Source: an uncultured Bacteroidales bacterium (lineage in GTDB: Bacteria; Bacteroidota; Bacteroidia; Bacteroidales; Muribaculaceae). From it: a stretch of DNA of 64,000 bases. Below are positions 18,182-57,090 of the stretch, one piece after another (position 1 is the first letter of the stretch; every line of letters begins with the position of its first letter). A program made the position numbers and the translations under genes. A model generated the notes under the pieces. That model searched no databases and was not told where the DNA came from. It saw nothing but the letters and a program-made list of their open reading frames with translations. The stretch lies in the NCBI GenBank assembly GCA_902774055.1, contig CACYGX010000005.1, positions 281,420 to 345,419 of the forward strand, in the 5' to 3' direction.

Positions 18182-19210
18182 ATGAAACGAGTTGCTGTCA
18201 TCATATTGAACTGGAACGGAGTCGATCTGCTGCGTCATTACTTGCCCACAGTGATTGCGGGAACCGATGACTCTATTGCCGACATCATTGTTGCCGACAA
18301 CGGCAGCTCCGATGGGAGCGTGCAGTTGCTTCACGAGGAGTTCCCAGGGATTAAAGTATTGAAGTTTGAACAGAATTACGGTTTTGCCGAGGGCTATAAC
18401 CTGGCTATCGGCCAAACCATGTACCCCTATACCGTGCTGCTGAACAGCGACGTGCGCACGCCTGACGGCTGGCTCAATCCGTTGCTGGACTATATGGAAA
18501 CCCACCCCCAAGTGGGTGCTGTGATGCCCAAGTTGCTGCACGACAGCGAGGACGACTCAGCGATGTTTGACTATGCTGGTGCTGCTGGCGGTTACATCGA
18601 TTGCCACGGCTATCCCTATTGCCGCGGGCGCGTGTTTGAGTATGTCGAGGACGACCATGGGCAGTATGACGACGTCCCCAAGAGCGTTTTTTGGGCTACA
18701 GGCGCGTGCATGATGGTGCGCAGCCAGCTCTATCAGGACGTTGGCGGCTTGGATAAGGATTTCTTTGCCCACATGGAGGAAATCGACCTGTGCTGGCGCA
18801 TCCGCTTGGCGGGCAATGACTTGATGATGATTCCGTCGAGCCACGTCTATCACTTGGGCGGCGGCAGTTTGGCCTATGGCAACCCCAGGAAGACTTACCT
18901 CAACTTCCGTAACAACCTGCTGTTGTTGCACAAGAACCTGCCCCAAGACGAGGGCAAGCGCCTGTTGCTGGTGCGCCGCTTGATGGATGCTCTCGCCTTT
19001 GGCATGGCCTTGGCTAAATTCCACTTCGGTGACGCCAGGGCGATTATCCGTGCCCACCGCGACTTCCGTAAGATGAGAAAAAACTACACTTCACAGCCCA
19101 CTGTCAACCTGTTGAGGCAACTCCCCGAGGAACGCGTCAACATCATCACCGCCCACTACCTGCGTGGCGTGAAACGCTTCACCGACCTGGAAATTCCAAC
19201 TAAAAACTAA
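18182..19210 (+). CDS. Family 2 glycosyltransferase
   Basis: A 342-residue GT2 enzyme, probably membrane-associated, acting on cell-surface glycan precursors. It begins MKRVAVIILNWNGVDLLRHY and has the nucleotide-sugar motifs VADNGSSDGS, LLNSDVRTP (the DxD-type site), ATGACMMVR and HMEEIDLCWR (an ED acceptor-side motif), all typical of rhamnosyl-type GT2 enzymes. The start at 18182 is chosen; GTG 18176 would add two residues. The donor and acceptor are unknown. Its last codons (CCA ACT AAA AAC TAA) already belong to the heptamer array that leads into the next gene. Confidence 0.9.
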   Translation: MKRVAVIILNWNGVDLLRHYLPTVIAGTDDSIADIIVADNGSSDGSVQLLHEEFPGIKVLKFEQNYGFAEGYNLAIGQTMYPYTVLLNSDVRTPDGWLNPLLDYMETHPQVGAVMPKLLHDSEDDSAMFDYAGAAGGYIDCHGYPYCRGRVFEYVEDDHGQYDDVPKSVFWATGACMMVRSQLYQDVGGLDKDFFAHMEEIDLCWRIRLAGNDLMMIPSSHVYHLGGGSLAYGNPRKTYLNFRNNLLLLHKNLPQDEGKRLLLVRRLMDALAFGMALAKFHFGDARAIIRAHRDFRKMRKNYTSQPTVNLLRQLPEERVNIITAHYLRGVKRFTDLEIPTKN

Positions 19211-19244
19211 GGACTAAGGACTGAGGACTAAGGACTAAAAACTA
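19202..19244 (+). repeat. Heptamer array (AAAACTA/AGGACTA) upstream of the aldo/keto reductase
   Basis: Six units in exact 7-base register: AAAACTA, AGGACTA, AGGACTG, AGGACTA, AGGACTA, AAAACTA. The array runs from within the last codons of the GT2 gene, across its stop codon, to within 10 bases of the next ATG (19254). The orientation is sense to the downstream gene. Similar arrays occur at 27294, 28573, 40184 (minus strand) and 57042. Confidence 0.9.
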
Positions 19245-19253
19245 AACAACAAT

Positions 19254-20372
19254 ATGAGAAAGCTTGGATTTGGATTGATGCGTCTGCCGCTGGTAAACCC
19301 CGATGACCAGTCGAGTATTGACATTGAGAAGTTTAAGGCGATGGCCGACAGGTTCATCGAGCGTGGTTTCACCTACTTTGACACGGCCTATCCCTATCAC
19401 GGCGGCAAGAGCGAGGAAGCGTTGCGCGAGGCCGTTGTTAAGCGATATCCGCGCGAAGCCTTCACGGTGACCAGCAAGATGCCCGTCTGGGCCATCAAGG
19501 AACAGGACGACTTGGAGCGCATCTTCAACGAGCAGCTAGAGCGCTGCGGCGTGGATTACTTTGACTACTACTGGCTGCATGCCCTCAACCGCGAGCGCGT
19601 CGAGGTGATGGACCAGATGGACGGTTGGGGCTTTATTGTCCGCAAGAAGGCCGAAGGCAAGATACGCCACGTAGGCTTCTCGTTCCACGACGACTCGGCG
19701 TTGCTGCGCGAAATCCTGGAGAAACATCCCGACATGGAATACGTCCAGTTGCAGATCAACTACCTCGACTGGGACAGTCCCGCCATCGAGAGCAAGACCT
19801 GCTATGACCTGTGTGTCAAGCACGGCAAGCCCGTCATCGTCATGGAGCCTGTCAAGGGCGGTTCGCTTGCCCGTGTCCCTGAGGCCATCGAGCGCTTGTT
19901 CAAGGACTATAATCCCGATGCCAGCCCCGCGTCGTGGGCCATCCGCTACTGCGCTTCGTTGCCCAATGTGTTGACCGTCCTCAGTGGCATGAGCACCATG
20001 GAGCAGCTCGATGACAACACCACCTATATGCAGGATTTCCAACCCCTCAACGACGAGGAACAGGCCATTATCGCCCAGGCGACCCAAGTGATCCGCGACG
20101 CCATTGCCATCCCTTGCACCGCCTGCCGCTACTGCGCTGAAGGCTGTCCGCAGCAGATTGCCATTCCCGAGTACTTCAACCTGTACAACATCGTGCAGCA
20201 GTTCCCCGAGTTGAAGAGTAACAGCAAGCTCTATCATGACCTGATCGCCAAGAGCCACGGCCTTGCCAATGAGTGCCTCGAGTGTGGCCAATGCGAGGCC
20301 CAGTGCCCCCAGCACATCGACATCATCGACAACCTCAAACTCGTCGCCGAGACCTTCGAAGAGGTAAAATAG
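19254..20372 (+). CDS. Aldo/keto reductase with C-terminal 4Fe-4S domain
   Basis: A 372-residue oxidoreductase. The aldo/keto reductase barrel occupies about 1-270 with the catalytic tetrad visible: D and Y in YFDTAYPYHGGKSEEAL, K in VTSKMPVW and H in YWLHAL. The C-terminus carries two ferredoxin-like clusters, CTACRYCAEGCPQ (about 285) and CLECGQCEAQCPQ (about 340). This combination is common in anaerobes and would link NAD(P)H-type carbonyl chemistry to Fe-S electron transfer. The substrate is unknown. The gene follows GT2 across a heptamer array and is the last of the plus-strand run. Confidence 0.9.
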   Translation: MRKLGFGLMRLPLVNPDDQSSIDIEKFKAMADRFIERGFTYFDTAYPYHGGKSEEALREAVVKRYPREAFTVTSKMPVWAIKEQDDLERIFNEQLERCGVDYFDYYWLHALNRERVEVMDQMDGWGFIVRKKAEGKIRHVGFSFHDDSALLREILEKHPDMEYVQLQINYLDWDSPAIESKTCYDLCVKHGKPVIVMEPVKGGSLARVPEAIERLFKDYNPDASPASWAIRYCASLPNVLTVLSGMSTMEQLDDNTTYMQDFQPLNDEEQAIIAQATQVIRDAIAIPCTACRYCAEGCPQQIAIPEYFNLYNIVQQFPELKSNSKLYHDLIAKSHGLANECLECGQCEAQCPQHIDIIDNLKLVAETFEEVK

Positions 20373-20665
20373 AGAAGGATTATTTTTGCAAGCCAGAGGC
20401 TTGCAATACCTCGACGGTGAAGAGGCGTCAAAAAGCAATGGGTGCGTTTTTACCTTCGTTTTTATAACCCATTGATTTCCAGTGTTTCCTTTGAGGGTTC
20501 CATTCAAAATAGGGTGGAGCGGAACTGTTAATGAAGTGTTAAAAGCATTATAGTCCTCATAGTGCAAAGGTAGGACAAACTCCATCATCCTACTATGCCA
20601 AAAAGTTTGGGGCCCTACTGGACGGGCTGGATGGACTGGACCGCCGCTGACGCGGCTCAACTGGA

Positions 20666-20690
20666 CGGCCACGCCAAGGCGAGGCCCTAC
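20666..20690 (+). repeat. Copy of the dispersed palindromic repeat
   Basis: Identical over 25 bases to the copy at 3543-3567 and to 27021-27045 (core GGCCACGCCAAGGCGAGGCC). Similarity to the 27021 copy continues outside the palindrome as ACAAGC-n-TTCGAA...AACAT, so the mobile unit may be longer than the palindrome. Confidence 0.75.
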
Positions 20691-20786
20691 AAGCGTTCGA
20701 AGGGCTAACATTTTTGCTGTTTTTATGAGGTATCTATGAATAGTAATTAATTAAGGGCGCAAAAAGTAATAAAAACGCAAAAATAC

Positions 20787-20817
20787 TTTGTTCATTCGAA
20801 AATAGTGAGTAATTTTG
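20787..20817 (+). promoter_or_regulatory. Orphan consensus promoter
   Basis: TTTG (20787-20790), 19 bases, then TAATTTTG (20810-20817) is an exact match to the Bacteroidota promoter. No gene follows. The first ATG (20836) opens a 29-codon frame that ends inside the first copy of the 48-base direct repeat. It could start a small RNA or be left over from a lost gene. Confidence 0.6.
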
Positions 20818-20889
20818 CACCGTCTAATTGTTACCATGAACCGTAGTGTGACATGGTTGCAAGAAGACATCGCAGTCATGCGATACTTT

Positions 20890-20937
20890 TTGATTCTTGT
20901 TTCGGAAAAATCGGCAATTTTTTAAGAAGCAATCAAG
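20890..20937 (+). repeat. Direct repeat, copy 1 (48 bases)
   Basis: The sequence begins TTGATTCTTGTTTCGGAAAA and ends TTAAGAAGCAATCAAG, with short inverted ends (TTGATT/AATCAA). It recurs at 21457-21505 with a single inserted A. The copies flank about 520 bases without a recognisable gene. Confidence 0.85.
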
Positions 20938-21456
20938 AAAAGTTCAACTGGAATAGGATTGAATCTGTATTACATTCTAACACGTGGACTTTTAGCTTGC
21001 CAATGATTGCTTAGGTGTTTGCCGATACCTCCGAAACATTGGCACGGGCATAGAAGTCCATGTTTTTTTCAAAGGTATCCATGACATGAATGATTACTAT
21101 GAGATATAATCAGTGCTAATGCTGAATTTGGTCAAAAAATACAAACTAAACCGCTGTATATCAGCGGGTTTTACCCCCCCCTCACAGTCGTTCTCAAATG
21201 TGAGGATGTGGTACGATGTTCCATTTTCGGTACTGGATTCTTCTTGCCCGGATGCCTTCATCGGGGTAAAGTGTTTGTGCAATACATTAATGTGTGTTGC
21301 GGCCGTTCTCGTGACAGCGACATGGCAGTCGCCGGCAGATGCTTCGGTGTCATGTCTTCAATTCATGGATGAATGGAGTAATTGTGTGTTCATGCTAGCT
21401 TAAATGCCTATGTAAAAACCTGAAATCATCAGACTACATATCTACACATCTTTTAT

Positions 21457-21505
21457 TTGATTCTTGTTTCGGAAAAATCGGCAAATTTTTTAAGAAGCAA
21501 TCAAG
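21457..21505 (+). repeat. Direct repeat, copy 2 (49 bases)
   Basis: Same sequence as 20890-20937 plus one extra A in the central A/T run. The near identity points to recent duplication or to a mobile unit. Confidence 0.85.
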
Positions 21506-21737
21506 AGTGAGATAATTGACCCCAATCCACGTGTGCGCGCGGACTTATATCTCTAGCTCGACAAAGTAATTGATTGCCTAAAAACCGATGGAAACCGAAA
21601 CGTGAGCTCAAGATAAAGAGTCCGCGTTTTTTATTGTATGTGGTGATCTCAGCAAATATAACTCGTTAACCAGACGCTATATATTATATTAATTTTGATT
21701 TTTTTGTAACATTAATAATAACTAAATCAGACGAAAG

Positions 21738-24700
21738 ATGAAATTATTTACTCTTGCACGTCTCATGGTTGTGATAGCAATCATGAGTCTCGCGGCTCAA
21801 TTACAGGCCGCGCAAGTCTTTCTTGATGCTCAGGCTCCGTACAGCGACAGCAATCCGCAGTGGAAAGTATGGGCCTGGGCCGATGGCCAAAATGGCTATT
21901 GGGTACAAGGCAATGACATTGTCGTCTTGAGCAATGGTCTCATTGAGGCTACGGTCAACGAAGACAACTTCCAGTTTGTCCGTTGTAGCTCTGACGGCAA
22001 CACGGAGTGGAACCGTACTGTAAACCTGAGAACTGTTGCCGACGCTACCTACACCATCACCGGTTGGGGCAGTGGCGGTGGAATGACGGTCGATGTGACC
22101 AATCCCACCTACAACACTGTGACCCTTGACCTGTCGAAGGTGAGCGAGACGGACAATGTGTGGTATGCGTGGGCTTTTGCTACGGGCGGTAACGGTTCGT
22201 GGGTTGCCGGCACGCAATCGGGCAACGATATTGAATTCAACGTTGCCAGTCTCAAGGACAAGGTTATCTTTGTCCGCATGAATGCCAATGGCGCTCCCTC
22301 ATGGAATAATGGCGTCAAGTTGAACCAGACCGATGACCTGACGTTACAGCCTGATGGCACATACGTTATCACCAACCTGGAAAGTACCAACATGACTGGT
22401 TACTGGAAAACCTCGGTTTGGCATCAGGATCCCAATGGTGACCCGGATTCTTACTTGGGCAATCGCCGAGCTCTCGTTGGCCGCCATTGCATGGTTAACA
22501 AGCTCATCAATGTGGTGGGCGTAGGATCTTGGATTACCGATCTCAACAACCTCGTTGATGAGGACTTGAGCAACTATGCCACCTTCCCCAAGATTGCTGA
22601 TGTGGGCGTGGGTGTGAACCCCGTGACCAGTGTGCGTGATACCAAGAATCACTACGCTGCCGGTACAACCGCAGGCTTCAATGTGGTGCTGGCAGCTGAT
22701 GCGTCATTGCTTGGCCTTGATTTGGCCAACTGCTTTGCCATCGCGTTCTATCTTGAAGGCGAATTGCAGCAGACCGTGGCCGTCGATGCAGGTCAAGCCT
22801 TCGGTGGCATCGGCCTGTCATTGATTACCTTGCCGGGTTCAGACGAAGTCAGTCTTGACATCTCGGCAACGGCTCCTTGTGAGTTCGATGAAATCGCGTT
22901 GATGCCTGCTGGTGTGCAAGCCGATGTTGCCAGCGCAGCCAGCATTCGTTATGCCTTTGTGGGCGACCTTATTAAGCATACCATCACCCAAACTTCAATG
23001 CAGAACTATGCTGAAGATCATGGTCGCCTGCCGTTCACTCTCGACCAGGGTGTTATACCACGTGATGGAAGGGAAAATGGTATAATATTAGTTGGATACG
23101 GTTACTGGGCAGGTAGTGACCTGATTAACGATGACTTGACAGATGGTGTGGCCTGGGGATTGCTTTCGGTAGGAACAGCAATGGATGCTCGAATCGGTGC
23201 CGCTATGAACCGTCAAGATCCTGATCAGTCTCAGCCCTTCAAGGCAGGCTCAACTGTGGGCTTTAGTTATGGTAGTGGTAGCCTCTTAAACCTCCCCTTG
23301 GGTGATGCGATTCGCATCAGGCTTTATGAAGGTCACTGGGTAGAAAAATCATCACTTGTTTATGGTACCTACTATGAGTATGAGGAAACTGAAGTACAAG
23401 ACGAGAGCGTGAAGATTAATGTTTTGTCGCTTAAATTGATTCATGGTGGTGATTACCAGGTGACCATCACTGCCGATCATGACTTCTCGCATGCGCGCAT
23501 TTCGTTCCCCACAGGATTGAATCTTAACGTTGGTGGCACTAAGGTGAAATATGCCTTCATTTGTGATCCTGTTGAGGGTTATCACAAGTGCAACCTGGGC
23601 GTGAGCGCTAATGTGGCCCTGTGTGCCGACGATACCCAGTATCAGTTGACCGCCAATGGTGGTGTTCCTGTTACCTGGACGCTGGTTGATGCTCCTGCTG
23701 GTTCCACCGCTACTGTGGATGCTCAGACGGGTCTGCTCACTGGCATCGATGTTGAGGGTGAGTATCGCGTTCGCGCTACCGCTGCCGATGGCTGCTATGA
23801 CGAGATCGTAGTGAAGAGCGGTCTGGATTTCGATACCCGCTGCGACATGCCCATCTCTGGTGATGAGACAGAGTATGTTTTGAGCGAAGAGCTGCCTGGC
23901 GCTGATGGTGCCCTGATTAATATCAACGGCTACCTGCTGAACAAGGAGAACGTGCTCAATGCCAACTATAATGACTATGCCACCTTCAACAGCGCGCTTG
24001 ACGCTACCGTCGTCGAGAACCTGCCCATCGTGGGTGTGAAGAAGGTAAATGGCAATTTCTCCACTGGCTCCAAACGCCGTGTGGGCTTCGTGGTAGAGAC
24101 CAAATCGACGGGCCTGAGTGCTGACGTTGCCGACCTGTTCAATATCCGCTGCTACAAGAACGGCGTGAGGACCTATTGGAAAGTGATTGACGAGACCAAC
24201 GTGGTTAAAGCCAAGGTCATCGGCTCTGATAAGGTGCAGAAACTGCGCTACTCTATCGAGGTTCCCGCCGGTGTGGAATTTGACGAGTTCGCATTGTGGA
24301 AGAGCGGTGTGCTCGATCTTGAAATTGAGCGCTTCAAGGTTTACTACGCCTTTGACGAGGACGCCGAGGGTCAGGATGCTCCCGACGACTGTGGCGACCC
24401 GCTGGGTTGTGCAGGAAAGATGGTTTCCATCTATGACAACGCTACGCTGAACAGCAACGAGATCCAGTTTGCCGGTGCTATCAATGCCGCCAATGTGGTC
24501 GATAACCTGAGCTTCCTGGTAGATGATGATTTAAATACCGGTGTCAGTGTGACCAATACTGTATCGGCTGGTAACGGCATCGTGTTTGCCGTTGACCTGG
24601 GCCGTGTTTACAGCCCGAGGCACCAGATTGGTATCGTGCTTGACAGCAAGACTTATCTTGCTAACGCTAAGGTAGGTAACTGGCTGACCATCAAAACCTA

Positions 24701-26441: not shown

Positions 26442-26494
26442 TGTCTTTTTAAATAAAAAGAAGTTAGTAATTTTTCATCATTATCCTAAAAGTG

Positions 26495-26529
26495 TGGGGG
26501 CATGTCGTGAAGACATGCTCCCATTTTAA
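26495..26529 (+). terminator. Terminator of the giant secreted protein gene
   Basis: GGGGGCATGTC (26496-26506) pairs with GACATGCTCCC (26512-26522), including one G-T pair, followed by ATTTTAATT. Confidence 0.8.
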
Positions 26530-27214: not shown

Positions 27215-27247
27215 TTGACAAGGGCCGCTCGATGTTGTATTTTTGCA
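27215..27247 (+). promoter_or_regulatory. Promoter of the DUF3098-uppP-truB-queA unit
   Basis: TTGACA (27215-27220) and TATTTTTGC (27239-27247) are separated by 18 bases. The leader of about 70 bases contains a heptamer array just before the DUF3098 ATG. Confidence 0.65.
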
Positions 27248-27293: not shown

Positions 27294-27321
27294 AAACTAG
27301 GGACTTAAACTAGAAACTATT
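27294..27321 (+). repeat. Heptamer array upstream of the DUF3098 gene
   Basis: Degenerate units around AAACTA, GGGACTT, AAACTA and GAAACTA lie directly before TTAAAATG. The orientation is the same as in the other arrays, sense to the downstream gene. Confidence 0.7.
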
Positions 27322-27324
27322 AAA

Positions 27325-27588: not shown

Positions 27589-27623
27589 GGTTTATTTAGG
27601 CTTTAGGTTTTAGGCTTGATTAT

Positions 27624-27728
27624 CAAACAACTAAAACAACTATGAACAATAGTAACAACATTTTTAGTTTTAAGTTGTATATGTTGTTGTTTGTTGTTCA
27701 AGTTGTTTGAAAAACTGAAAACTGAGAT
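27624..27728 (+). repeat. Long imperfect hairpin between the DUF3098 gene and uppP
   Basis: CAAACAACT (27624-27632) pairs with AGTTGTTTG (27701-27709), and further AACAAC/GTTGTT pairing lies inside. A 22-codon frame (27642-27710, MNNSNNIFSFKLYMLLFVVQ...) lies within it. Two AAAACTG-type heptamers follow just before the uppP ATG. It could be an attenuator or mRNA-processing element. Confidence 0.5.
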
Positions 27729-28572: not shown

Positions 28573-28608
28573 CAGCTAGGGACTAGAAACTAAGGACTAG
28601 GGACTTAA
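28573..28608 (+). repeat. Heptamer array upstream of truB
   Basis: The run AGCTAGG, GACTAGA, AACTAAG, GACTAGG, GACTTAA is in 7-base register and ends 3 bases before the truB ATG. It belongs to the same family as the arrays at 19202, 40184 and 57042. Confidence 0.8.
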
Positions 28609-28611
28609 ACA

Positions 28612-37594: not shown

Positions 37595-37599
37595 TTTAT

Positions 37600-37627
37600 T
37601 AGTTTTAAGTTGTAAGTTTTGAGTTCA
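37600..37627 (-). repeat. Degenerate heptamer array upstream of the acetyl-CoA hydrolase/transferase gene
   Basis: On the minus strand the units TGAACTC, AAAACTT, ACAACTT and AAAACTA are in 7-base register and end 5 bases before the ATG. Family and orientation match the stronger arrays. Confidence 0.6.
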
Positions 37628-38978: not shown

Positions 38979-38998
38979 AATTTTTTAATATTATTTTT

Positions 38999-39051
38999 CT
39001 AGATGATCTAGATGGTCTAGATTTTCTAGAGATGTTTATTTTTTCTAGATT
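38999..39051. repeat. Cluster of five CTAGA(T) motifs between pgi and the upstream gene
   Basis: CTAGAT occurs at 38999, 39009 and 39017, CTAGAG near 39026 and CTAGAT near 39045. The last overlaps the stop codon of the acetyltransferase-like gene. CTAG is usually rare in bacterial DNA, so the clustering stands out. Confidence 0.6.
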
Positions 39052-40183: not shown

Positions 40184-40274
40184 TTTTAGTTTTTGGTCCT
40201 TAGTCCTTAGTCCTTAGTCCTTGGTCCTTAGTTTTTGTTTTTTAGTCCTTGGTCCTTAGTCCTTAGTTTTTAGT
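40184..40274 (-). repeat. Longest heptamer array: 13 units upstream of the GNAT-like gene
   Basis: Read on the plus strand, 13 consecutive 7-mers (TTTTAGT, TTTTGGT, CCTTAGT x3, CCTTGGT, CCTTAGT, TTTTGTT, TTTTAGT, CCTTGGT, CCTTAGT x2, TTTTAGT) keep perfect register. In the sense of the downstream gene the unit is ACTAAGG/ACTAAAA. The array starts 8 bases before the ATG at 40175 and fills the spacer to the small upstream gene. Confidence 0.95.
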
Positions 40275-49281: not shown

Positions 49282-49306
49282 ACATCAGTTACTGGTATCT
49301 ATAAAT

Positions 49307-49363
49307 AACTGAACACTCTGAAGAATCTGATAATCAGAACATCCAGAGTGTTCAGTTGTTTGT
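49307..49363. terminator. Bidirectional terminator between nadB and the DUF4834 gene
   Basis: AACTGAACACTCTG (49307-49320) pairs perfectly with CAGAGTGTTCAGTT (49344-49357). T-rich sequence (GTTTGTTATT) follows on the plus strand and ATTTATAGAT on the minus strand. The genes on both sides converge on it. Confidence 0.85.
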
Positions 49364-49373
49364 TATTGTTGGG

Positions 49374-49712
49374 TCAATCCCTAATCTCTTCGTATTCGGC
49401 GTCGGTCACCTGTTCTTCGATGATGGTACGGGTGTCGTCATTGATGGTGGTTTCCTCAATGATGGTTTCGTTGACTTCTTCAAAGTCGGCATATTCGCCC
49501 TCGTTGCTGGTGAAGATTTTGCGTTCACCGGTTTCGGTGTATTCTTCTTCTTCGTCGTCATATTCGCGGCGTGGACGCTCATGCTGCTGACGTCCGCGGA
49601 AGGACTCATTGACGCGGCGACGCATGTTCTGCACATAGAGCCAGCCCCTGATCAGGGGAATCCCTACCATCAGGAACAGAATGAGCAATATGAATAAAAG
49701 GAAGCCTCCCAT
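49374..49712 (-). CDS. DUF4834 family protein
   Basis: A 112-residue protein with one N-terminal membrane helix (FLLFILLILFLMVGIPLI), a basic juxtamembrane stretch (QNMRRRVNESFRGRQQHERP) and an acidic tail (DDEEEEYTETGE, EEVNETIIEETTIND). This matches DUF4834 of Bacteroidales, whose function is unknown. It follows pssA without spacing, so it is the third gene of a psd-pssA-DUF4834 operon and may act in phospholipid metabolism or envelope assembly (inferred from position). Confidence 0.75.
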   Translation of the reverse strand: MGGFLLFILLILFLMVGIPLIRGWLYVQNMRRRVNESFRGRQQHERPRREYDDEEEEYTETGERKIFTSNEGEYADFEEVNETIIEETTINDDTRTIIEEQVTDAEYEEIRD

Positions 49713-50414
49713 TTATTTTTCTCTTTTAATGATTGAAAGCAGCACATAGAGCGTGATGGCGGCAGCCAGGCCTGGCAGACCCATCAGCACCACAAATGCC
49801 ACTGTAGCCACTACCTGCAAATATTGTGCCCAATTCTGCTTGAGTGACGACAAGTTGTGCATCTTCAACGAGAACATGCGCAGGTTGCACACCATCAGCA
49901 AGGACAATACCACGATGAGCAGAATCACGACCCACAGGGGGACAGGGTGCATCGCATACCACGCCGTGAAGCCGATCCAGAAGATGGCGTTGGCAGGAAT
50001 GGGCAGGCCTGTGAAAACTGTACTCTGGTTAGGATCGATATTGAAGCGGGCAAGCCTCAGAGCCCCAAACACGGGCAGCAACAGTGCAAAGAGCGCCCAA
50101 TGGCCGGCACCTTGACCTATCATGATGTTATAGAGCACCAGCGCGGGAGCGAGTCCAAAACTTACCGAATCGGCCAGCGAGTCCAGTTCCTTGCCGATAC
50201 CACTCACTGCATGAAGCAGCCTGGCCACCAAGCCGTCAAAGAAATCGGCTACTGCCGACAGGGCAATGAAGATGAATGCCCACTGATAGCCCTTGATTGA
50301 AGTGCCGCACATGGGGTCAAAGCAGTGAAATGCCATGATGCAAGCCATGCAGCCGAATAGCAGGTTCAGCGAGGTGATGGCATTGGGAATGTTGTTGCGA
50401 ATCGCTTTAATCAT
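49713..50414 (-). CDS. pssA: CDP-diacylglycerol-serine O-phosphatidyltransferase
   Basis: A 233-residue integral membrane enzyme that makes phosphatidylserine. The CDP-alcohol phosphotransferase motif is present as DGLVARLLHAVSGIGKELDS (DG-x2-AR...G-x3-D-x3-D, completed by LAD). About six hydrophobic segments are seen. It overlaps psd by 4 bases, and together they give the phosphatidylethanolamine pathway: PssA makes phosphatidylserine and Psd decarboxylates it. Confidence 0.93.
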   Translation of the reverse strand: MIKAIRNNIPNAITSLNLLFGCMACIMAFHCFDPMCGTSIKGYQWAFIFIALSAVADFFDGLVARLLHAVSGIGKELDSLADSVSFGLAPALVLYNIMIGQGAGHWALFALLLPVFGALRLARFNIDPNQSTVFTGLPIPANAIFWIGFTAWYAMHPVPLWVVILLIVVLSLLMVCNLRMFSLKMHNLSSLKQNWAQYLQVVATVAFVVLMGLPGLAAAITLYVLLSIIKREK

Positions 50415-51097
50415 GCTTTTTGATGGTTTTTGAGTCGTGCGACAAGGGTTTCACCCCCCCAAGTGCGGTCGCCCAGTTTGACTTTGATTTCGGTGTCGAG
50501 CGGCAGGAAGATGTCCACGCGGGAACCGAACTTGATGAAGCCGATGAAGTCGTTCACGTCAACCGTCTCGCCTTTTTCCACATAGGTGACAATGCGCCGT
50601 GCCACAGCGCCGGCAATCTGGCGAACCAGGATTTCCTCACCCGTCGAGGTGCGGATTACAATCGACGACCGCTCGTTGTCGCTGCTCGACTTGGGCAGGT
50701 TGGCGGCAAGGAAACGTCCAGAGTGATGTTTATAGTAGGTCACTTCGCCCTTGACAGGCACCCAGTTGGCATGAACATTAAACACGGTCATGAACACGGA
50801 CAACTGAATGACATTGCGGTGCAGATACTCATCCTCATAGACCTCCTCGAGCGCTACCACGGTGCCGTCAACACTCGATACCACGGCGGTGCCATCACTG
50901 TTGTCGCCCTTGAAATGGCGACGGGGCAACCTGAAGAAGTTGAGTACAAGTAAGAACAATATGGCCATCAATGCTATCAAGCACCAAGCCACAGGTTTGT
51001 AGTCAAAGAACCTGTATGCCATGGCACCTGTCGCACCGATAATCAAGAACAGTATCAACAGGATATTCTCGCCCTCATGATGGATTTTAACTTTCAT
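50411..51097 (-). CDS. psd: Phosphatidylserine decarboxylase (short type)
   Basis: A 228-residue membrane-associated pyruvoyl enzyme converting phosphatidylserine to phosphatidylethanolamine. The self-cleavage site appears as FGSRVDIFLP near residue 190. Two hydrophobic segments lie at the N-terminus (NILLILFLIIGATGAMAY and AWCLIALMAILFLLVL). The start at 51097 (MKVKIHHEGE) is chosen because the promoter box (51124-51132) covers the alternative start 30 bases upstream. Heptamer repeats lie in the upstream promoter region. Confidence 0.92.
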   Translation of the reverse strand: MKVKIHHEGENILLILFLIIGATGAMAYRFFDYKPVAWCLIALMAILFLLVLNFFRLPRRHFKGDNSDGTAVVSSVDGTVVALEEVYEDEYLHRNVIQLSVFMTVFNVHANWVPVKGEVTYYKHHSGRFLAANLPKSSSDNERSSIVIRTSTGEEILVRQIAGAVARRIVTYVEKGETVDVNDFIGFIKFGSRVDIFLPLDTEIKVKLGDRTWGGETLVARLKNHQKA

Positions 51098-51123
51098 TCT
51101 CGCGGCTGATAATCGATTAACTC

Positions 51124-51132
51124 GCAAAGATA
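51124..51132 (-). promoter_or_regulatory. Promoter -7 box of psd-pssA-DUF4834
   Basis: The minus strand reads TATCTTTGC, 27 bases before the psd start. The expected -33 position falls inside the TTTTCAG repeat array. Confidence 0.65.
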
Positions 51133-51140
51133 GTAAAAAT

Positions 51141-51168
51141 TTTTCAGTTTTCAGTTTTCAGTTTTCAG
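51141..51168 (-). repeat. Four perfect heptanucleotide repeats in the psd promoter region
   Basis: TTTTCAG occurs four times without interruption (CTGAAAA in the sense of psd). The array overlaps the place where the -33 element should be, about 19-35 bases upstream of the -7 box. Repeat-number change could alter promoter strength. Confidence 0.85.
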
Positions 51169-51302
51169 TTTTTTTAAGATAGCCAGGTAATTTCAAAGAA
51201 TTTTCAAGAAAACGGAGGGGACGGGTGTGATGGAGGGGGACGGATGGAGGCGTCAGAAAAACGGCAAGGTTGCAGGAAAATGCCATCGTGTGAAACTGGG
51301 TG

Positions 51303-51311
51303 TAACTTTGC
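51303..51311 (+). promoter_or_regulatory. Promoter -7 box of the VWA gene
   Basis: TAACTTTGC followed by AATG, 60 bases before the VWA protein start. Confidence 0.55.
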
Positions 51312-51370
51312 AATGTCATCGGGAAAACCCCGAAAAAAGCATTTATTCACTCTTTCATTCAATTGACGAT

Positions 51371-52048
51371 ATGAAAACTCCAATTACTGTTTACAATGTG
51401 ATTATTCTCGACAAGAGCGGCTCCATGTCGAGCATTGCACGCCAGGCCATCGATGGCGTGAACGAGGCCATCGGTTCCATCAAGAGTGCCCAGGAAAAAA
51501 ATCCCGACGAAAAACACCTGGTGACGCTTGTCGCCTTCTGTGGCTGTGAGCAGCGGCTCATCTACGACAATCTGCCTGTTGTCGAGGTCAAGCCCCTTAC
51601 CGACAAGGATTACCGTCCCTGCTGCATGACGCCCCTGTATGACGCCGTGGGCACGACCATCACGCGTGTTCATTCGCTCAAGAGTTCAGACCCCTCATCG
51701 CTGGCTTTGGTCACCATCATCACCGACGGCTATGAGAACGCTTCTCAAGAGTTTAGCCAGACCGCCATTAAGTCGCTCATCGAAAGCTACAAGGACCAGG
51801 GCTGGCAGTTTACCTACATCGGTGCCGACCATGATGTGGAGCGGGTGGCCTATTCACTCTGCATCGAACACAGCATGGAGTTTGACAAGACTCCCAAGGG
51901 TACTGCTAAAATGTTTGCCCAAAACCGCAGGGCTCGTAGTCGCTGGATTAACAAACTGAAATCCATCATGACGGATGAAGATATGGATGATGAGGAGCGC
52001 CTGTCGAACATCAAGAGTGCCAACCACGATAGCTTTTTTATTGATTAA
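51371..52048 (+). CDS. VWA-domain protein (TerY-like)
   Basis: A 225-residue single-domain von Willebrand factor A protein, predicted cytosolic. The metal-ion-dependent adhesion site is complete: D-x-S-x-S in ILDKSGSMSS (about 13-19), a threonine in CMTPLYDAVG and an aspartate in IITDGYENAS. The start at 51371 (MKTPITVYNV) is set by the upstream promoter box. It is the first of three same-strand genes, the others being uncharacterised. VWA proteins usually mediate metal-dependent protein contacts; the partner here may be the protein encoded at 52435. Confidence 0.88.
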   Translation: MKTPITVYNVIILDKSGSMSSIARQAIDGVNEAIGSIKSAQEKNPDEKHLVTLVAFCGCEQRLIYDNLPVVEVKPLTDKDYRPCCMTPLYDAVGTTITRVHSLKSSDPSSLALVTIITDGYENASQEFSQTAIKSLIESYKDQGWQFTYIGADHDVERVAYSLCIEHSMEFDKTPKGTAKMFAQNRRARSRWINKLKSIMTDEDMDDEERLSNIKSANHDSFFID

Positions 52049-52079
52049 CTATTATTCAACCCCGAAAATCAGTTGAGAT

Positions 52080-52310
52080 ATGCTGAGGACTATCAAGGAA
52101 TTATTGCTGGAATGGTGGGCCGGGAACTCGACGACCCAGATGCCACTACCGACGCGCTACACCTATGATGTAGAGGTGGATGGCAAGATGATCCAGATCG
52201 AGAGCTTCAGTTGCAGCAGGATCTATGTCCACTATCAGGTGAGAAAAAAGTATCCTGATGCCAAGCACATCAGCGTTAAAAGGCAAATCAGGCAATACTT
52301 CATAGCCTAA
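52080..52310 (+). CDS. Hypothetical protein, 76 residues
   Basis: A small basic protein starting MLRTIKELLLEWWAG with an amphipathic helix, followed by a strand-rich part (YTYDVEVDGKMIQIESFSCS) and a basic C-terminus (KHISVKRQIRQYFIA). No family is recognised. It begins 31 bases after the VWA gene and is followed by a terminator hairpin, so it is probably co-transcribed with the VWA gene. Confidence 0.65.
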   Translation: MLRTIKELLLEWWAGNSTTQMPLPTRYTYDVEVDGKMIQIESFSCSRIYVHYQVRKKYPDAKHISVKRQIRQYFIA

Positions 52311-52321
52311 GTCTGGAAGTG

Positions 52322-52358
52322 AGCTATGCGGGGAATTATCTCCGCATAGCCCTCTTTA
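52322..52358 (+). terminator. Terminator after the 76-residue protein gene
   Basis: GCTATGCGG (52323-52331) pairs with CCGCATAGC (52342-52350), followed by CCTCTTTATA. Confidence 0.7.
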
Positions 52359-52434
52359 TATCAAGCCCTTGCCGTTGGCATGGTTTTTGCTGTGTACTAC
52401 TTTATTAGTAACACCTCAATCCCCCCTTAAGAAT

Positions 52435-53592
52435 ATGATGCAGCCCAATCTTCAAGACCTCAAGTACGGAATCATTTATTTGTATTGTGACCGGAGACTT
52501 TCATCAAGATCGCAAGGCATCGAAGATGTCGTCAACAAGTTAGTTCGCCCCATGCAAGTCGAATGGGTCAATGAGCCAGGCCGTGAAGACCTACTATTGA
52601 TTGCGAGACGTTTCAATGTGGGTAATATAGGTCATTATGCCACCGTGAGTCTGTCACTTAGCCTCATGAATAATTCGGGTGTCTGGCTTGAGGCGATACA
52701 CCATTTTGCTGATGTGCTCATGGGTCTTGACGATATGGGCGATGGTGATATTGTGCTCAGTGAGGAAGACTTTGGCGCTATATGTTTTGACATGTGCCCG
52801 TCGGGCTCTGCTTCTTCACTGCCTGCACCCCAGGATCACACGCGCGTTGAAGCATCTCGCAAGGGCAATCGGTGGGCAAGGTTCCACCAGCGGCTTCGCA
52901 ATATCATGACTAGCGTCAAGGATGAAATTGTGTTATGTGACGAATCGCAGGACAAAGCAACAGTTGATTATTGTAAAGACATTGCGGAGCCTGAACTTGA
53001 CATCCTTCAAGAGGAGGAGAATGATGAAGTCCTGAAGATTGAACAGGAGCGCAAGCAGGCGCTGGAACGCATCAAGCGAGAGATTGTCAACTATATAGCC
53101 CACTACCACGATGACCCCCAAGAGCTGATGAAGGAGTTGCTGCGTGGCAAGGTGGTTGTGGGACAGCCCGGGCGGGTGCTGGTTAATGGGGACATGAAAA
53201 TTGTGTTGCCCGAGTATGACGAAATGGAAATCAAGATGCCAGCCCTGTGCCGTACGCTCTATATCCTGTTTATGAAAAACCGCAAACAGGGCAATAAAGG
53301 CATTGTCTTAAAAAATATGGATGAATTTCGGGACGAAATCCTGGAAATTTACGGCCTGGTAAAGCCTGGTGCCAGTGAGCGTCGTGTCAAGCAGTCGGCC
53401 AGCAATCTTTGTGACCCGTTCAGTGACTCGCTCAACCAGACGATTTCAAGGATTAACCGCTGCATCAAGAACGTTATTACCGATAAGGAACTTGCTAAGG
53501 CTTATACCATTACAGGCATGAAGGGCCAGCCTTACAGCATCGCCCTGGCTCCAGAGTACATAGAACTCCCCCGTGCCGTAACAGGTGCCTGA
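52435..53592 (+). CDS. Uncharacterised protein with coiled coil and winged-helix-like C-terminus
   Basis: A 385-residue protein, start chosen at 52435 (MMQPNLQDLK). Residues 1-125 are globular (KYGIIYLYCDRRLSSRSQGI, then VSLSLSLMNNSGVWLEAIHH). Residues about 185-240 form a charged coiled coil (EEENDEVLKIEQERKQALER). The last 130 residues (LCRTLYILFMKNRKQGNKGI, then SLNQTISRINRCIKN and ITGMKGQPYSIAL) have the order of helices and final beta-hairpin of an OmpR-type winged helix. I infer possible DNA binding; I do not recognise a named family. It follows the VWA gene group in the same direction, with a terminator between. Confidence 0.7.
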   Translation: MMQPNLQDLKYGIIYLYCDRRLSSRSQGIEDVVNKLVRPMQVEWVNEPGREDLLLIARRFNVGNIGHYATVSLSLSLMNNSGVWLEAIHHFADVLMGLDDMGDGDIVLSEEDFGAICFDMCPSGSASSLPAPQDHTRVEASRKGNRWARFHQRLRNIMTSVKDEIVLCDESQDKATVDYCKDIAEPELDILQEEENDEVLKIEQERKQALERIKREIVNYIAHYHDDPQELMKELLRGKVVVGQPGRVLVNGDMKIVLPEYDEMEIKMPALCRTLYILFMKNRKQGNKGIVLKNMDEFRDEILEIYGLVKPGASERRVKQSASNLCDPFSDSLNQTISRINRCIKNVITDKELAKAYTITGMKGQPYSIALAPEYIELPRAVTGA

Positions 53593-53601
53593 CGCATCTG
53601 A

Positions 53602-55575
53602 TTAACTGTGGAAGCGGTATTGGACGAAGGCCTCGATGGCCTCGTAGGTGGCGAGGCCCAGTTGTTGGTATTTCTCGGCCAGGTCGCGGTTGCGCTCGAT
53701 GGAGCGTTGCCATGGCAGTTTGCCGTCGGCGCTGGAACGGAAGGGCGCGTCATGAATCTGTGAATGGAACTGGAGGATGGCATTGCGCTTGTCCCCAAAT
53801 TCCTCGGGGCTCATGGGCACCGCCATTTCCACTTGGTCCACGTCCCACTGGCCCCACTGGCCGCGGTACATCCACACGCGGCAATCCCGCATAAAGTCCT
53901 CACCCTTCAGGTTATCCAAGGCATGCATCACTGCTCCAGTGGCGCGTGCATGAGTCCCGTGCGGGTCCACCAAGTCGTTGTCGAGGAAGATCTGGTGAGG
54001 CTTGATTTGGGCGATGAGGTCTTGAATCACTGCGACATCGTTGTCGGTGAGTTTGCCCTGTCCGTGAGGGCCATTGACATAGAATGGCATGCGCAGGTCG
54101 TGAAGGTTCTCTTTGGGAACCCCCATCTGGCGGCAGGCCATCATGGCCTCGCTCAGCATGATGGAGCCCTTGAAGAAGCGGATGTCGTCGTTGTCCTCGC
54201 TAGTGGTCGTGTTCTGGATGAACTTGGTCAACGTCTCCTCGATGAATTTGAATCCCACGCCCTCAAAACGCTTGGTCAAGCGGTCGGCCAGCAGCAGGGT
54301 GCGCATCATGTCGTCATCGCTCACGGCCACATCGCCGTCGGTCTGGAAGGCGATGCTCACGTCATGGCCTTGCTGAACCAGTCGGCGCACGGTGCCGCCC
54401 ATCGAGACGATGGCGTCGTCGGGGTGTGGACTGAAGATGAGCACACGCTTGGGGTAGGGGTTCTCGCGCTCGGGGCGGTAGGTGTCGTCGGCATTGGGCT
54501 TGCCGCCTGGCCATCCCGTGATGGTATGCTGCAAATCGTTGAATGTCTTGATGTTGACATTGTAGGCCGAGTCATACAGGGCCACCAGTTCGCTCAATCC
54601 ATAATCGTTGTAATCCTCATTAGTGAGTTTGAGAATGGGCTTGCCCGTCTGCTCACACAACCACACGATAGCGCGACGGATGAGATAGTCATTCCATTCA
54701 CAGGAGGTTACCTTCCACGGGTAACTGATGCGCGTCAGCCTTGACGCCGCGTCCAGGTCGGCATAGATTTTGACGTCATCATGAACCTGCAGGAAGGATG
54801 CGGGCACGAGGTCTGTCATCTTGCCTTCGACGGTATTGAACAGGGCCGTTGCCGAGTCCTCTTCCCAGGCTACACAGATGATTTTGCTAGCCCTCAAGAT
54901 GTTACCGATGCCCAAAGTGATGGCCGTTTTGGGGGCGGTATCGCTCTGGAACGCCTCGGCAATCCTGGTGCGGGACTCGTTGCCCAGCAGCATCAGGCGG
55001 CAGGCGCTGGTGCGGGCCGACCCCGGCTCGTTATAGGCCAGAGAGCCATCGGGTGTCAGGTCACACAAGACTAGATCCAGACCGCCCGCATCGATGATGT
55101 CGCGCTCATAGGCTTTGCACAACGCGTGAACATTCTCACTGGCACTGTGGCGATTAATCGTGTGGATGTGGTCGGGCTCGATATCTACCTTGGCATACAA
55201 GTGTTCGCTGATGAGTTTATTCAGGCTCAACTCTTGGTCATCGGTCATTCCCAATTCGCTCAGGTTGAAGGCAACGACGTCGGCAAAGCTCACTTTGTCG
55301 GCAAAATAGAGTTTGACCAATTCGTCATAGACCTTGAACACATATCGTCCAGCACCAAAGCCAATGACGCACCTGCCGTGCTTCTCGACACACTCATTGA
55401 TGACGCGCGCCACATCGAGCGCGGCCTCCTGGGCGCCCGCCTCGGCACTTTCCATGACTGTGGCAGGGACTTTCTCATATCGCGTGAGCGATGCGAGTTC
55501 TATCTCATTTTCAGGACGATAATACCTGTTAGAAACCTGAAAAAACTTGATATTGGTCTTCAAATCCGTCTTCAT
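53602..55575 (-). CDS. NagB-like/PIG-L fusion protein (annotated type: glucosamine-6-phosphate deaminase)
   Basis: A 657-residue two-domain protein. Residues 1-300 resemble glucosamine-6-phosphate deaminase (NEPGS at 182-186), but key positions differ. The NMDEY base motif reads NLSEL (104-108), the DGH motif reads DGS (176-178), and the sugar-phosphate loop reads GFGAGRYVF. Residues about 375-640 are a PIG-L zinc deacetylase with HPDD (about 384) and DPHGTHARA. The middle (LTNEDYNDYGLSELVALY, HTITGWPGGKPNADDTYRPE) is conserved in the Bacteroidales family. The PIG-L half looks catalytically competent; the deaminase half may not be. The role is probably amino-sugar deacetylation or sensing. 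Confidence 0.85.
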   Translation of the reverse strand: MKTDLKTNIKFFQVSNRYYRPENEIELASLTRYEKVPATVMESAEAGAQEAALDVARVINECVEKHGRCVIGFGAGRYVFKVYDELVKLYFADKVSFADVVAFNLSELGMTDDQELSLNKLISEHLYAKVDIEPDHIHTINRHSASENVHALCKAYERDIIDAGGLDLVLCDLTPDGSLAYNEPGSARTSACRLMLLGNESRTRIAEAFQSDTAPKTAITLGIGNILRASKIICVAWEEDSATALFNTVEGKMTDLVPASFLQVHDDVKIYADLDAASRLTRISYPWKVTSCEWNDYLIRRAIVWLCEQTGKPILKLTNEDYNDYGLSELVALYDSAYNVNIKTFNDLQHTITGWPGGKPNADDTYRPERENPYPKRVLIFSPHPDDAIVSMGGTVRRLVQQGHDVSIAFQTDGDVAVSDDDMMRTLLLADRLTKRFEGVGFKFIEETLTKFIQNTTTSEDNDDIRFFKGSIMLSEAMMACRQMGVPKENLHDLRMPFYVNGPHGQGKLTDNDVAVIQDLIAQIKPHQIFLDNDLVDPHGTHARATGAVMHALDNLKGEDFMRDCRVWMYRGQWGQWDVDQVEMAVPMSPEEFGDKRNAILQFHSQIHDAPFRSSADGKLPWQRSIERNRDLAEKYQQLGLATYEAIEAFVQYRFHS

Positions 55576-55602
55576 CTTTTTTACCTTAGTCGTTACAACA
55601 TA

Positions 55603-55611
55603 GCAAAATTA
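55603..55611 (-). promoter_or_regulatory. Promoter -7 box of the NagB/PIG-L gene
   Basis: The minus strand reads TAATTTTGC, 28 bases before the start. It is divergent from the miaB box. Confidence 0.6.
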
Positions 55612-55643
55612 AGTAAAATTTCATAATCACCAATAAAATTTCG

Positions 55644-55652
55644 TAATTTTGC
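55644..55652 (+). promoter_or_regulatory. Promoter -7 box of miaB
   Basis: TAATTTTGC followed by AGTC, 27 bases before the miaB ATG. Confidence 0.6.
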
Positions 55653-55678
55653 AGTCTTGAACCGGATAAGTAAATAAC

Positions 55679-57049
55679 ATGGCAATAAATTTGATATACG
55701 ACGGCCAGGGTGACACCACCAAGCGATTGCTGCTTGAGACCTATGGCTGCCAAATGAATGTGGCCGACAGCGAAGTAGTCGCCACGGTGATGAAGATGGC
55801 GGGCTACGAGACCACTGAGGATATCGACGATGCTGACGCGATATTCATCAATACGTGCTCGGTGCGCGATAATGCCGAGCAAAAGATTTTCTCGCGCCTC
55901 AACCAGTTAAATGCCTATCGGCTGAAACGCCAGCGCCGCCTCATTATTGGCATCATCGGCTGCATGGCCGAGCGCATGAAGGAGGTGCTCATCAACGAGC
56001 ATGGCGTGGACCTGGTTGCAGGCCCCGACGCATACTTGGATTTGCCTTCTCTCATCGGCATTGCTGAGCGTGGTGATAAAGCCATCAATACCGAATTGTC
56101 CACTACCGAGACCTACCGCGACATCATCCCGTCGCGCGTGGGCGGCAGTAAGGTGAGCGGCTTTATCAGCATCATGAGGGGCTGTAACAACTTCTGTACC
56201 TACTGCATCGTACCTTATACCCGCGGCCGTGAACGAAGCCGTGAGCCCCAGAGCATCCTCAACGAGTTGGCCGACCTGCGTCAGCGCGGCTTCATGGAGG
56301 TGACGCTACTGGGACAGAATGTCAATTCCTACCTCTACAAGCCAGCAGATGGCAGCGAGCCTGTGGACCTGGCCCGCTTGCTAGCTATGGTTGCCGAGGC
56401 TGCACCCGAAATGCGTGTTCGCTTCACCACCAGCAACCCCGAGGACCTGAGCGACGCCATCATCGACACGATGGCGAGCCACAATAACATCTGCAACCAC
56501 ATTCACCTGCCCGTGCAGAGCGGCAGCAATAAGGTGCTGAAACTGATGAACCGCAAATATACCCGCGAGTGGTATCTGGACCGCATCGCCCGCATCCGTG
56601 CCGCGATGCCCGATTGCGGCATTTCGACCGATATGTTTACGGGTTTCCACGATGAGACCGAGGAGGATTTCCAAGAGACGCTGTCGCTGATGCGCGAGGT
56701 GGGCTTTGACTCAGCCTTCATGTTCAAGTATAGCGAGCGCCCTGGCACATTTGCTGCCAAAAATCTGCCCGACAACGTCCCCGAGGACGTGAAAATCGAC
56801 CGCCTCAACCGCATGATTGCCCTGCAGAACGAATTGTCGCTATGCAGTAACCGTAATGACGTGGGCAAGACCTTTGAGGTGCTTGTCGAGGGTTATAGCA
56901 AGCGCAGCCGTGACGACATGTTCGGCCGAACCCAGCAGAACAAGGTCATCGTTTTCCCCGCCAATGGTGAGAAACCCGGCGATAAGGTGATGTGCCGCGT
57001 GCTCAGCGCGTCAAGTGCCACCCTCAAGGGCGAACGCGTAAAGGACTAA
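55679..57049 (+). CDS. miaB: tRNA-2-methylthio-N6-dimethylallyladenosine synthase MiaB
   Basis: A 456-residue radical SAM enzyme that methylthiolates i6A37 in tRNAs. The N-terminal domain has cluster cysteines in TYGCQMNVADSE, NTCSVRDNAEQK and IGCMAERMK. The radical SAM motif is CNNFCTYC, followed by VPYTRGRERSR. HLPVQSGSNKVLKLMNR and a C-terminal TRAM domain (about 390-456) complete the family. It is the second methylthiotransferase in this window after MtaB. The last codons (AAG GAC TAA) form the first unit of the following heptamer array. Confidence 0.96.
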   Translation: MAINLIYDGQGDTTKRLLLETYGCQMNVADSEVVATVMKMAGYETTEDIDDADAIFINTCSVRDNAEQKIFSRLNQLNAYRLKRQRRLIIGIIGCMAERMKEVLINEHGVDLVAGPDAYLDLPSLIGIAERGDKAINTELSTTETYRDIIPSRVGGSKVSGFISIMRGCNNFCTYCIVPYTRGRERSREPQSILNELADLRQRGFMEVTLLGQNVNSYLYKPADGSEPVDLARLLAMVAEAAPEMRVRFTTSNPEDLSDAIIDTMASHNNICNHIHLPVQSGSNKVLKLMNRKYTREWYLDRIARIRAAMPDCGISTDMFTGFHDETEEDFQETLSLMREVGFDSAFMFKYSERPGTFAAKNLPDNVPEDVKIDRLNRMIALQNELSLCSNRNDVGKTFEVLVEGYSKRSRDDMFGRTQQNKVIVFPANGEKPGDKVMCRVLSASSATLKGERVKD

Positions 57050-57090
57050 AAACTATGGACTAAGGACTAAGGACTAATAACTAAAAACTA
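57042..57090 (+). repeat. Heptamer array upstream of the DUF4254 gene
   Basis: Seven units in exact register: AGGACTA, AAAACTA, TGGACTA, AGGACTA, AGGACTA, ATAACTA, AAAACTA. The first unit contains the miaB stop codon, and the last ends 5 bases before the ATG at 57096. Confidence 0.92.

Follow-up and report, generated by a model that had tools for sequence, protein, structure and literature searches.

Sense-oriented ACT heptamer arrays beside start codons in a Muribaculaceae-like genus are a new variety of TAACTGA-like repeats

The 64,000-nucleotide stretch analyzed here (contig CACYGX010000005.1 of an uncultured Bacteroidales bacterium of the Muribaculaceae, hereafter the window) carries short tandem arrays of heptanucleotides directly in front of several of its genes (Table 1). 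The units begin with ACT and include ACTAAGG, ACTAAAA, ACTAGAA, ACTGACA, and others, the first two being the commonest. An initial annotation of the window had described arrays in exact 7-base register that end 3–10 bases before an ATG, and the sites it named are present, both the main arrays before the aldo/keto reductase, truB, DUF4254, and GNAT-like genes and the weaker versions before the acetyl-CoA hydrolase/transferase family gene and uppP, as are the upstream stop codons inside two of the arrays. Exact register is kept by the main arrays other than the irregular one before the DUF3098 gene, and the distance to the ATG was measured as 1 to 8 nt with the last partial unit counted. The clean array at 51136–51176 had been overlooked; the gene downstream of it belongs to the phosphatidylserine decarboxylase family, with a likely ATG at 51097. 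The irregular array probably lies in the 5′ leader of the DUF3098 gene, because a −7-like box TATTTTTG was seen by eye upstream of it, near 27240. Among those checked, the genes downstream of the window arrays have no common function.

Table 1. Repeat arrays and associated stop codons in the 64-kb window
Feature	Position	Strand	Context
ACT heptamer array	19199..19247	+	7 ACT starts in 7-nt register; 6 nt to ATG 19254, aldo/keto reductase
Stop of upstream glycosyltransferase gene	19208-19210	+	Inside the 19199..19247 array
Irregular array, ACTAGGG-ACTTAA-ACTAGAA-ACTATTA	27296..27322	+	Steps of 7, 6, 7; 2 nt to ATG 27325, DUF3098 gene
Stop-side array, TTTAGGC x3.3	27595..27617	+	Directly past the DUF3098 stop; different class from the ACT arrays
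Two units, ACTGAAA ACTGAGA	27714..27727	+	1 nt to ATG 27729, uppP (BacA)
ACT array	28575..28609	+	2 nt to ATG 28612, truB; hairpin-like TGGCTGATGCCA precedes the array
Weaker array, ACTCAAA ACTTACA ACTTAAA ACTAATA	37597..37624	-	Before ATG 37594, acetyl-CoA hydrolase/transferase family gene
Nonamer array, TCTAGA-type units TCTAGAATA	38998..39030	-	Flanked by two minus-strand genes; belongs, with period 9, to the same set of spacer repeats
91-nt array, 13 units, ACT-starting 9/13	40184..40274	-	8 nt to ATG 40175, GNAT-like gene
ACTGAAA x4.6 array	51136..51176	-	9 nt to −7 box TATCTTTG; promoter-side class, no adjoining ATG
ACT array, 7 ACT starts	57045..57093	+	2 nt to ATG 57096, DUF4254 gene
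Stop of upstream radical-SAM/TRAM gene	57047-57049	+	Inside the 57045..57093 array

The arrays are real, specific in period, and far above chance. The motif ACTARRRACTARRR, with at most one mismatch, was matched 28 times in the window, whereas 100 dinucleotide shuffles averaged 0.33 matches and never exceeded 2, and a self-match test of the window (17/21, periods 2 to 21) was passed only by periods 7, 14, and 21, plus one period-9 and one period-12 run. Across 457 kb of the genome that holds the window (the own genome, of which 17 of 20 stretches were picked around arrays) there were 34 period-7 and 17 period-9 runs and 0 at periods 4, 5, 6, 8, 10, and 11, and 340 kb of a second genome, G025, held 32 at period 7, 10 at period 9, and 3 at period 8. 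The period-7 runs are non-coding in 32/34 and 32/32 cases, respectively, as are those of period 9, the second enriched period, in 16/17 and 9/10. The strict pattern ACTARRRACTARRRACTA has 75 overlapping matches in the 3.17 Mb own genome and its reversed control has 0. Random simple repeats, which the initial annotation had set aside, are rejected on the window shuffles and on one Markov resample per set, which yielded 0 runs at periods 5, 7, 8, and 9.

The arrays run in the sense of the gene that follows. A finder requiring at least three ACTA[AG] units in register, applied to both strands, returned 46 arrays from the own genome, G025, and G024, of which 42 follow the orientation of the downstream gene, 2 oppose it, and 2 lie at contig edges, and returned 0 from G005. 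Eighty truB loci from different records contributed 20 arrays in 16 loci, 20/20 in sense, and of the combined 66 arrays (62 sense, 2 antisense, and the 2 contig-edge arrays, excluded from orientation ratios) 55 lie in sense no more than 16 nt from a called ATG. Within 18 nt of an ATG and in spacers of at least 25 nt, the count was 71 sense to 0 antisense in the own genome, G025, G024, and 37 truB loci, and 26 to 0 in four genomes fetched later, where 39/43 arrays overall are in sense and the remaining 4 run toward the following gene from its 3′ end. With any start codon, spacers of at least 15 nt, and the same 18-nt limit, 12 sequence sets gave 113 arrays in sense and 1 in antisense. The proposed sense orientation is upheld by this ratio, and the equal use of both strands relative to genes that would have been read as neutral simple repeats was not found. 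The position before the ATG is not fixed in the manner first proposed: the number of units varies, and the distance to the ATG ranges from −2 to 18. Start positions in one fixed register were considered and rejected, as all residues modulo 7 occur.

It should be noted how these sequences were chosen. Genes were called with a hexamer-based caller, such that start positions are approximate. The G025 contig was picked in the knowledge that it carried listed matches and the stretches of G054, G409, and G557 were picked around listed matches; for G024, G005, G021, G006, G049, and G009, the genomes were selected by match count and their contigs by number. Two records, L035 and L159, alike in length and in arrays, are one contig, and its two arrays are double-counted in the figures based on 66, 71, and 113 arrays, on the unit gradient, and on 592 units and 108 start-side arrays; L049 and L059 have one spacer in common.

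Most start-side arrays appear to be internal to operons, since they occur mostly in codirectional spacers with few TAnnTTTGC boxes. In the own genome, G025, G024, and the truB loci, the spacer is codirectional for 68/71 array starts vs 504/695 other starts (Fisher, 2e-6) and contains TAnnTTTGC for 7/71 vs 281/695 (6e-8); the later genomes gave 24/26 vs 230/356 (0.002) and 3/26 vs 161/356 (0.0007). A smaller subclass sits beside promoters. The motif TAnnTTTG, a known −7 consensus (PMC7366714), follows 15/170 unique arrays at no more than 40 nt when the ACT strand is read, compared with 1 on the other strand, and the gap is exactly 9 nt in 10 of the 15 (the others being 4, 10, 16, 17, and 29 nt). 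These ten derive from the own genome (two, including 51136–51176), G025 (two), truB loci (two), G054, G557, G006, and G009, and the fixed distance to TAnnTTTG expected of a SigABfr promoter is confined to this subclass (10/170). Because arrays at 9 nt lie upstream of the expected transcription start, they would be unable to act in the RNA of that gene, and the suggestion of a purely RNA-level element fails for them.

Unit order and composition also change with distance from the start. The unit nearest the ATG is mostly of the A type, with ACTAAGG further off, and units with at least two G at letters 5–7 account for 14/80 of those ending within 12 nt of the ATG vs 131/247 of those farther away (1.4e-8; own genome 4/30 vs 65/107, 3e-6; G025 and G024 together, p = 0.012). 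In the later genomes, with GG counted over letters 4–7, the contrast was 0/35 near vs 20/92 far (0.0017). AAGGA, which could pair with the anti-Shine-Dalgarno (anti-SD) sequence, is present farther upstream in the arrays, and the depletion of GG units within 12 nt of the ATG would keep it out of the SD position. The G content of own array leaders is 0.04–0.09 inside −18 and about 0.2 beyond, a step close to the limit of −20 for the open region in Flavobacterium (PMC6847099). Array-free own leaders are A-rich as well (0.38–0.42 at −1 to −24 vs 0.31–0.32 farther up), with a G minimum of 0.11 at −13 to −18. These values can be set beside published accounts, in which Bacteroidetes lack SD sequences and, in Flavobacterium, initiation is increased by A at −3 and −6 and the stretch from −20 to +20 is less paired (PMC6847099), and in which A is noted at −3, −6, and −11 to −15 (PMC7366714).

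The predicted unpaired probability from −20 to +15 follows the same direction. In the own genome it is 0.679 for array genes (n = 22) vs 0.535 for others (n = 232; p = 4e-7) and falls to 0.473 when the arrays are inverted in place; in G024 it is 0.687 vs 0.530. For the later genomes the values are 0.704 (n = 26) vs 0.528 (n = 356; p = 1e-10), with 0.433 after inversion. Inversion in place lowers predicted openness below that of ordinary genes in the own genome, G024, G025, and the later genomes alike, which may explain why the arrays face one way.

Where the arrays lie and which way they face, their operon-like setting, the gradient of units, the predicted openness, the spacing to the −7 box, and turnover (below) were all computed, and together they lead us to lean toward reading the start-side arrays as interchangeable, A-rich, SD-free leader DNA that favors initiation, with promoter-side units kept where they fit a promoter. 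Under such a scheme, ACT heptamers dispersed in a lineage-specific manner would spread and vary in length within spacer DNA, and beside starts almost the only arrays retained would be those whose orientation and unit mix suit ribosomes working without SD pairing. A good initiation region would be A-rich, free of GG and AAGGA near the start, and unfolded, and openness would likely raise initiation; orientation, likewise, would have been set by selection and not by the copying process. Arrays in operon-internal spacers would be generic, exchangeable leader DNA instead of the site of one regulator, and in a spacer with a promoter A-rich units would be kept where they are compatible with it, as a rule with the end of the array 9 nt upstream of the −7 box. 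The A-rich unstructured leader first suggested is consistent with the start-side arrays.

Several results weigh against this account. The openness gap in G025 is weak (0.603 vs 0.540, p = 0.13), the GG-unit gradient falls short of significance when the truB loci are taken by themselves (p = 0.09), and the gradient is partly an edge effect, as the first, start-distant unit is also G-poor (GG in 17/55). The sole antisense case among the 12 sets, L190 of G409, lies 8 nt before a start, and by eye an antisense array in L112 of G025 precedes a small uncalled gene. Arrays antisense to the next gene number 5/18 in G409 and 4/13 in G054, and in G557, which belongs to another family, just 1/8 arrays is start-proximal. 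Lastly, stop-side arrays use the opposite strand and array-free trailers are not T-rich, such that selection on leaders does not cover the whole pattern.

Turnover was examined in the spacer between truB and queA, typed in 38 records (37 truB loci and the window) by a crude rule in which at least two units define the ACT type, and under which the window spacer itself was typed as 'other' though CTTAGCG-like. ACT heptamers were assigned to 17 spacers, CTTAGCG nonamers to 9, TCTAG nonamers to 4, and other sequence to 8. On a tree of TruB and QueA in which 5/35 inner branches are well supported, these types need 18 changes, where shuffled types need a mean of 18.4 and are as low in 108/200. Clustering is confined to the TCTAG type, whose 2 changes were matched or undercut in 4/500 shuffles. 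The supported pair L031/L035 has unrelated spacers, and the supported pairs L045/L057 and L061/L082 each have their type in common. Spacers of L033 and L036 have similar ends and lengths of 46 and 67 nt, a difference of 21 nt or three units; with one genome per species, such 7-nt steps, which between strains of one species and with a switch of expression would mark phase-variable repeats (contingency loci), were seen between records. As spacer type swaps between related loci, the arrays look replaceable, and the frequent presence of other repeat types in the same spacer of sister species argues against a dedicated regulator. The dedicated binding track raised in the initial annotation is thus not sustained, given that orthologous genes in related species replace the array with other repeats or plain leaders.

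The arrays are dispersed through the spacers of a rumen Muribaculaceae-like genus, and their copy number differs widely between species. With the own genome counted in every figure, the strict pattern occurs in 42/61 genomes of the genus (0 to 366 matches, 19/61 without it), and a looser ACTNANA triple in 49/61. A draw from the family had it in 8/119, including two species of genus g152 with 120 and 211 matches, and the order and phylum in 16/148 and 16/296 genomes, respectively, with no more than 13 matches each, the own genome aside. The closest named loci are rumen and gut metagenome-assembled genomes labeled by submitters as Muribaculaceae, Prevotellaceae, Porphyromonadaceae, or Bacteroidales. 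This distribution suggests a fast, lineage-specific proliferation of the arrays.

Other explanations account for parts of these data. Several units could be bound by an RNA-binding protein that reads the repeat, or by S1 or another ribosomal protein, and a regulon controlled in this way; the strong strand and position bias and the multiple units would be expected of such a track, and for the TAACTGA repeats MacGregor put forward binders of the S1, Csp, or CsrA-like kind (PMC4679880). Such regulation is nevertheless unlikely in view of the lack of common function among the window genes checked, the truB-queA type changes no fewer than in shuffles (on a tree with few well-supported branches, where TCTAG alone clusters), the 19 genus genomes without the strict pattern, and the variation in unit number and ATG distance. 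A comparably low likelihood applies to neutral satellites, produced by polymerase slippage and copying in any non-coding DNA and merely excluded from genes. In one survey, heptamers outnumbered other long simple repeats in most genomes (Mrazek 2007, via PMC4679880), and both the sporadic spread and the three-unit difference between L033 and L036 would be natural for satellites, but a 113:1 strand ratio, the unit gradient, the operon bias, and the recurrent 9-nt spacing to the −7 box would be unexpected, and for start-side arrays the explanation is already disfavored.

It is quite improbable that the array is a DNA-level promoter element, with the start-side arrays as promoter relics: the excess of downstream TAnnTTTG boxes on the ACT strand (15 vs 1) and the ten at exactly 9 nt agree with an upstream promoter part, while most arrays adjoin an ATG in spacers depleted of −7 boxes. 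The arrays might instead screen all frames with stop codons, each unit supplying a sense stop and the period of 7 rotating the frame so that three units close all frames between genes. A sense stop is found in 543/592 ACT-starting units, and 83/108 start-side arrays close all three frames, both from a finder that favors stop-carrying units. An ACT-only finder (126 arrays, 705 units) returned AA 342, GA 108, and AG 85 times at letters 4–5, and GG, which forms TGG and no stop, 4 times vs 16.4 expected if letters were independent, a deficit whose p value is too small because the units are tandem copies and hence not independent. Stop-free units such as ACTTACA and ACTCACA exist, and the TCTAGA-type nonamers hold a stop in one frame, which leaves such a screen with very little probability.

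The arrays found at gene ends differ from those at starts. Among 161 intergenic period-7 runs, 44 were start-only, 51 stop-only, 34 spanning, and 32 far from both, and the first two classes were compared. Read in sense, the stop-side arrays (no more than 30 nt from a stop and not near a start) are rich in T and G, with TTAG at least twice in 30/51 and CTAA in 3/51; start-side arrays have CTAA in 24/44 and TTAG in 1/44. A strict inverted-repeat rule holding for every spacer was rejected: where the nearest boundary is a start, 63 of the 161 runs are for it, 2 against, and 6 undecided, and at gene ends 38 are for it, 30 against (many filling the entire spacer), and 22 undecided. GTTAGGA, AGATTAG, and GTTTAGR arrays, with the TTAG strand in sense, occur on the stop side in L111-L127, L128-L147, and L156-L167 and often overlap the stop codon (e.g., L121:8806-8860, L127:2809-2869, and L141:9955-9995); several of the stop-side arrays, judged by eye, lie next to hairpins that resemble terminators. 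Some of the units equal TTTAGGG, the plant telomere heptamer. In L121:6480-6736, between convergent genes, a repeat of ~75 bp is present in four copies, each a GTTTAGRG array with a GC-rich palindrome-like stretch.

Nonamers beyond the window include CTTAAGGAC and CTGGACGGA, as at L143:6820-6861, 8840-8886, 10014-10073, and 12071-12132. The hairpin GGCGGATGCC was rejected as a general partner of the arrays, the spacers with it numbering 1 in the own genome, 3 in G025, and 0 in both G005 and G024. A GCGGATGCC-like core borders several arrays on their upstream side and also occurs in spacers of the unrelated AATTCG type; its sites include uppP-truB spacers (e.g., L037, L041, L042, L049, and L056) and, as GTTGGCGGATGCCAAC, L123:17500-17540. 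Between nine divergent array pairs no general mobile carrier was found; the candidates were a sequence resembling a miniature inverted-repeat transposable element (G054) and a small gene (G025). The G054 sequences of this kind (L181:5695-6107 and 11486-11733) have a common end, TTGTAGGGGCACACTAATT, which recurs roughly inverted at the opposite end, with ACT arrays pointing outward on both sides. In L112:7233-7677, a small minus-strand frame with, by eye, the look of a four-helix bundle (S23-like) has inverted arrays on both flanks, and one of these would run antisense to its start.

The ACT arrays are a new variety of TAACTGA-like repeats and not a new kind. The STRR heptamers of heterocystous cyanobacteria are short tandem repeats in spacers. 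The initial annotation knew of no described class that fits, and yet direct heptamer repeats in sense orientation, immediately ahead of start codons, are described in MacGregor 2015 (PMC4679880). These TAACTGA repeats occur in marine Beggiatoaceae, cyanobacteria, and Bacteroidetes (five among the carriers), and have been counted in Thiomargarita with reference to MacGregor (PMC4853749). In Beggiatoaceae they are mostly forward, directly before start codons, and sometimes overlap the upstream open reading frame (ORF); in Flexibacter litoralis 12/14 sets are intergenic and forward, 1 to 43 nt from the start; the downstream genes have functions without a pattern, and two Cyanothece strains differ by 7-nt indels (PMC4679880). 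The ACT arrays are alike in period, AACT core, forward strand, and an end within several nt of the start codon, and differ in their main units (ACTAAGG, ACTAAAA, and ACTAGAA). ACTGATA, a rotation of TAACTGA, is found in arrays of the sister species G054, G028, and G008, mixed with ACTAAAA in G054, and three successive TAACTGA units have 0 matches in the own genome (G000) and are present in 11/247 phylum genomes. The G-unit gradient, the promoter-side subclass, and the opposite-strand stop-side class are features of the ACT arrays not met in the parts of the TAACTGA account drawn on here. Among the top-listed papers in searches of the open literature, whose coverage did not extend to subscription papers and preprints, there was no start-side heptamer account besides MacGregor 2015.

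Two other known systems bear a partial likeness. The GGGAATC and GGGGA(T/C)T heptamers of Xanthomonas and Nostoc (PMC4692102) are likewise intergenic, with many loci per genome and lengths that vary between relatives, but they are G-rich and quadruplex-forming, lie nearer the preceding ORF (~28 nt), and have no clear strand preference, whereas the ACT arrays are A-rich and start-side. ACTAGGG is a minor ACT unit (19/592), and the runs of at least three G per unit looked for as the mark of a G-quadruplex do not characterize the arrays. The Kozak-like leaders of Bacteroidetes (PMC6847099) are equally A-rich, weakly paired, and SD-free before the ATG, but involve single positions (−3, −6, −12, and −13) without repeats.

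A broader and more doubtful proposal is that gene borders in this clade are composed, and composed anew, from a few kinds of tandem cassette of 7 or 9 bases, which a copying machinery would swap between spacers faster than species split, such that leaders would evolve by exchange and not by point mutation. In this repertoire ACT heptamers would take the places in front of starts or 9 nt upstream of a −7 box, TTAG heptamers those that follow stops, and TCTAGAACA and CTTAGCGCC nonamers those between; among the heptamers, the CTAA/AACT strand tends to run into the gene from either side. Replacement of spacer DNA by repeat cassettes can be seen between close relatives. The arrays link the unexplained TAACTGA repeats of giant sulfur bacteria with the A-rich leaders of Bacteroidales and offer a natural experiment on how start codons are marked in bacteria without Shine-Dalgarno pairing, in which many genes carry near-synthetic, modular leaders and the order of units, A near and G far, may report what the ribosome tolerates.

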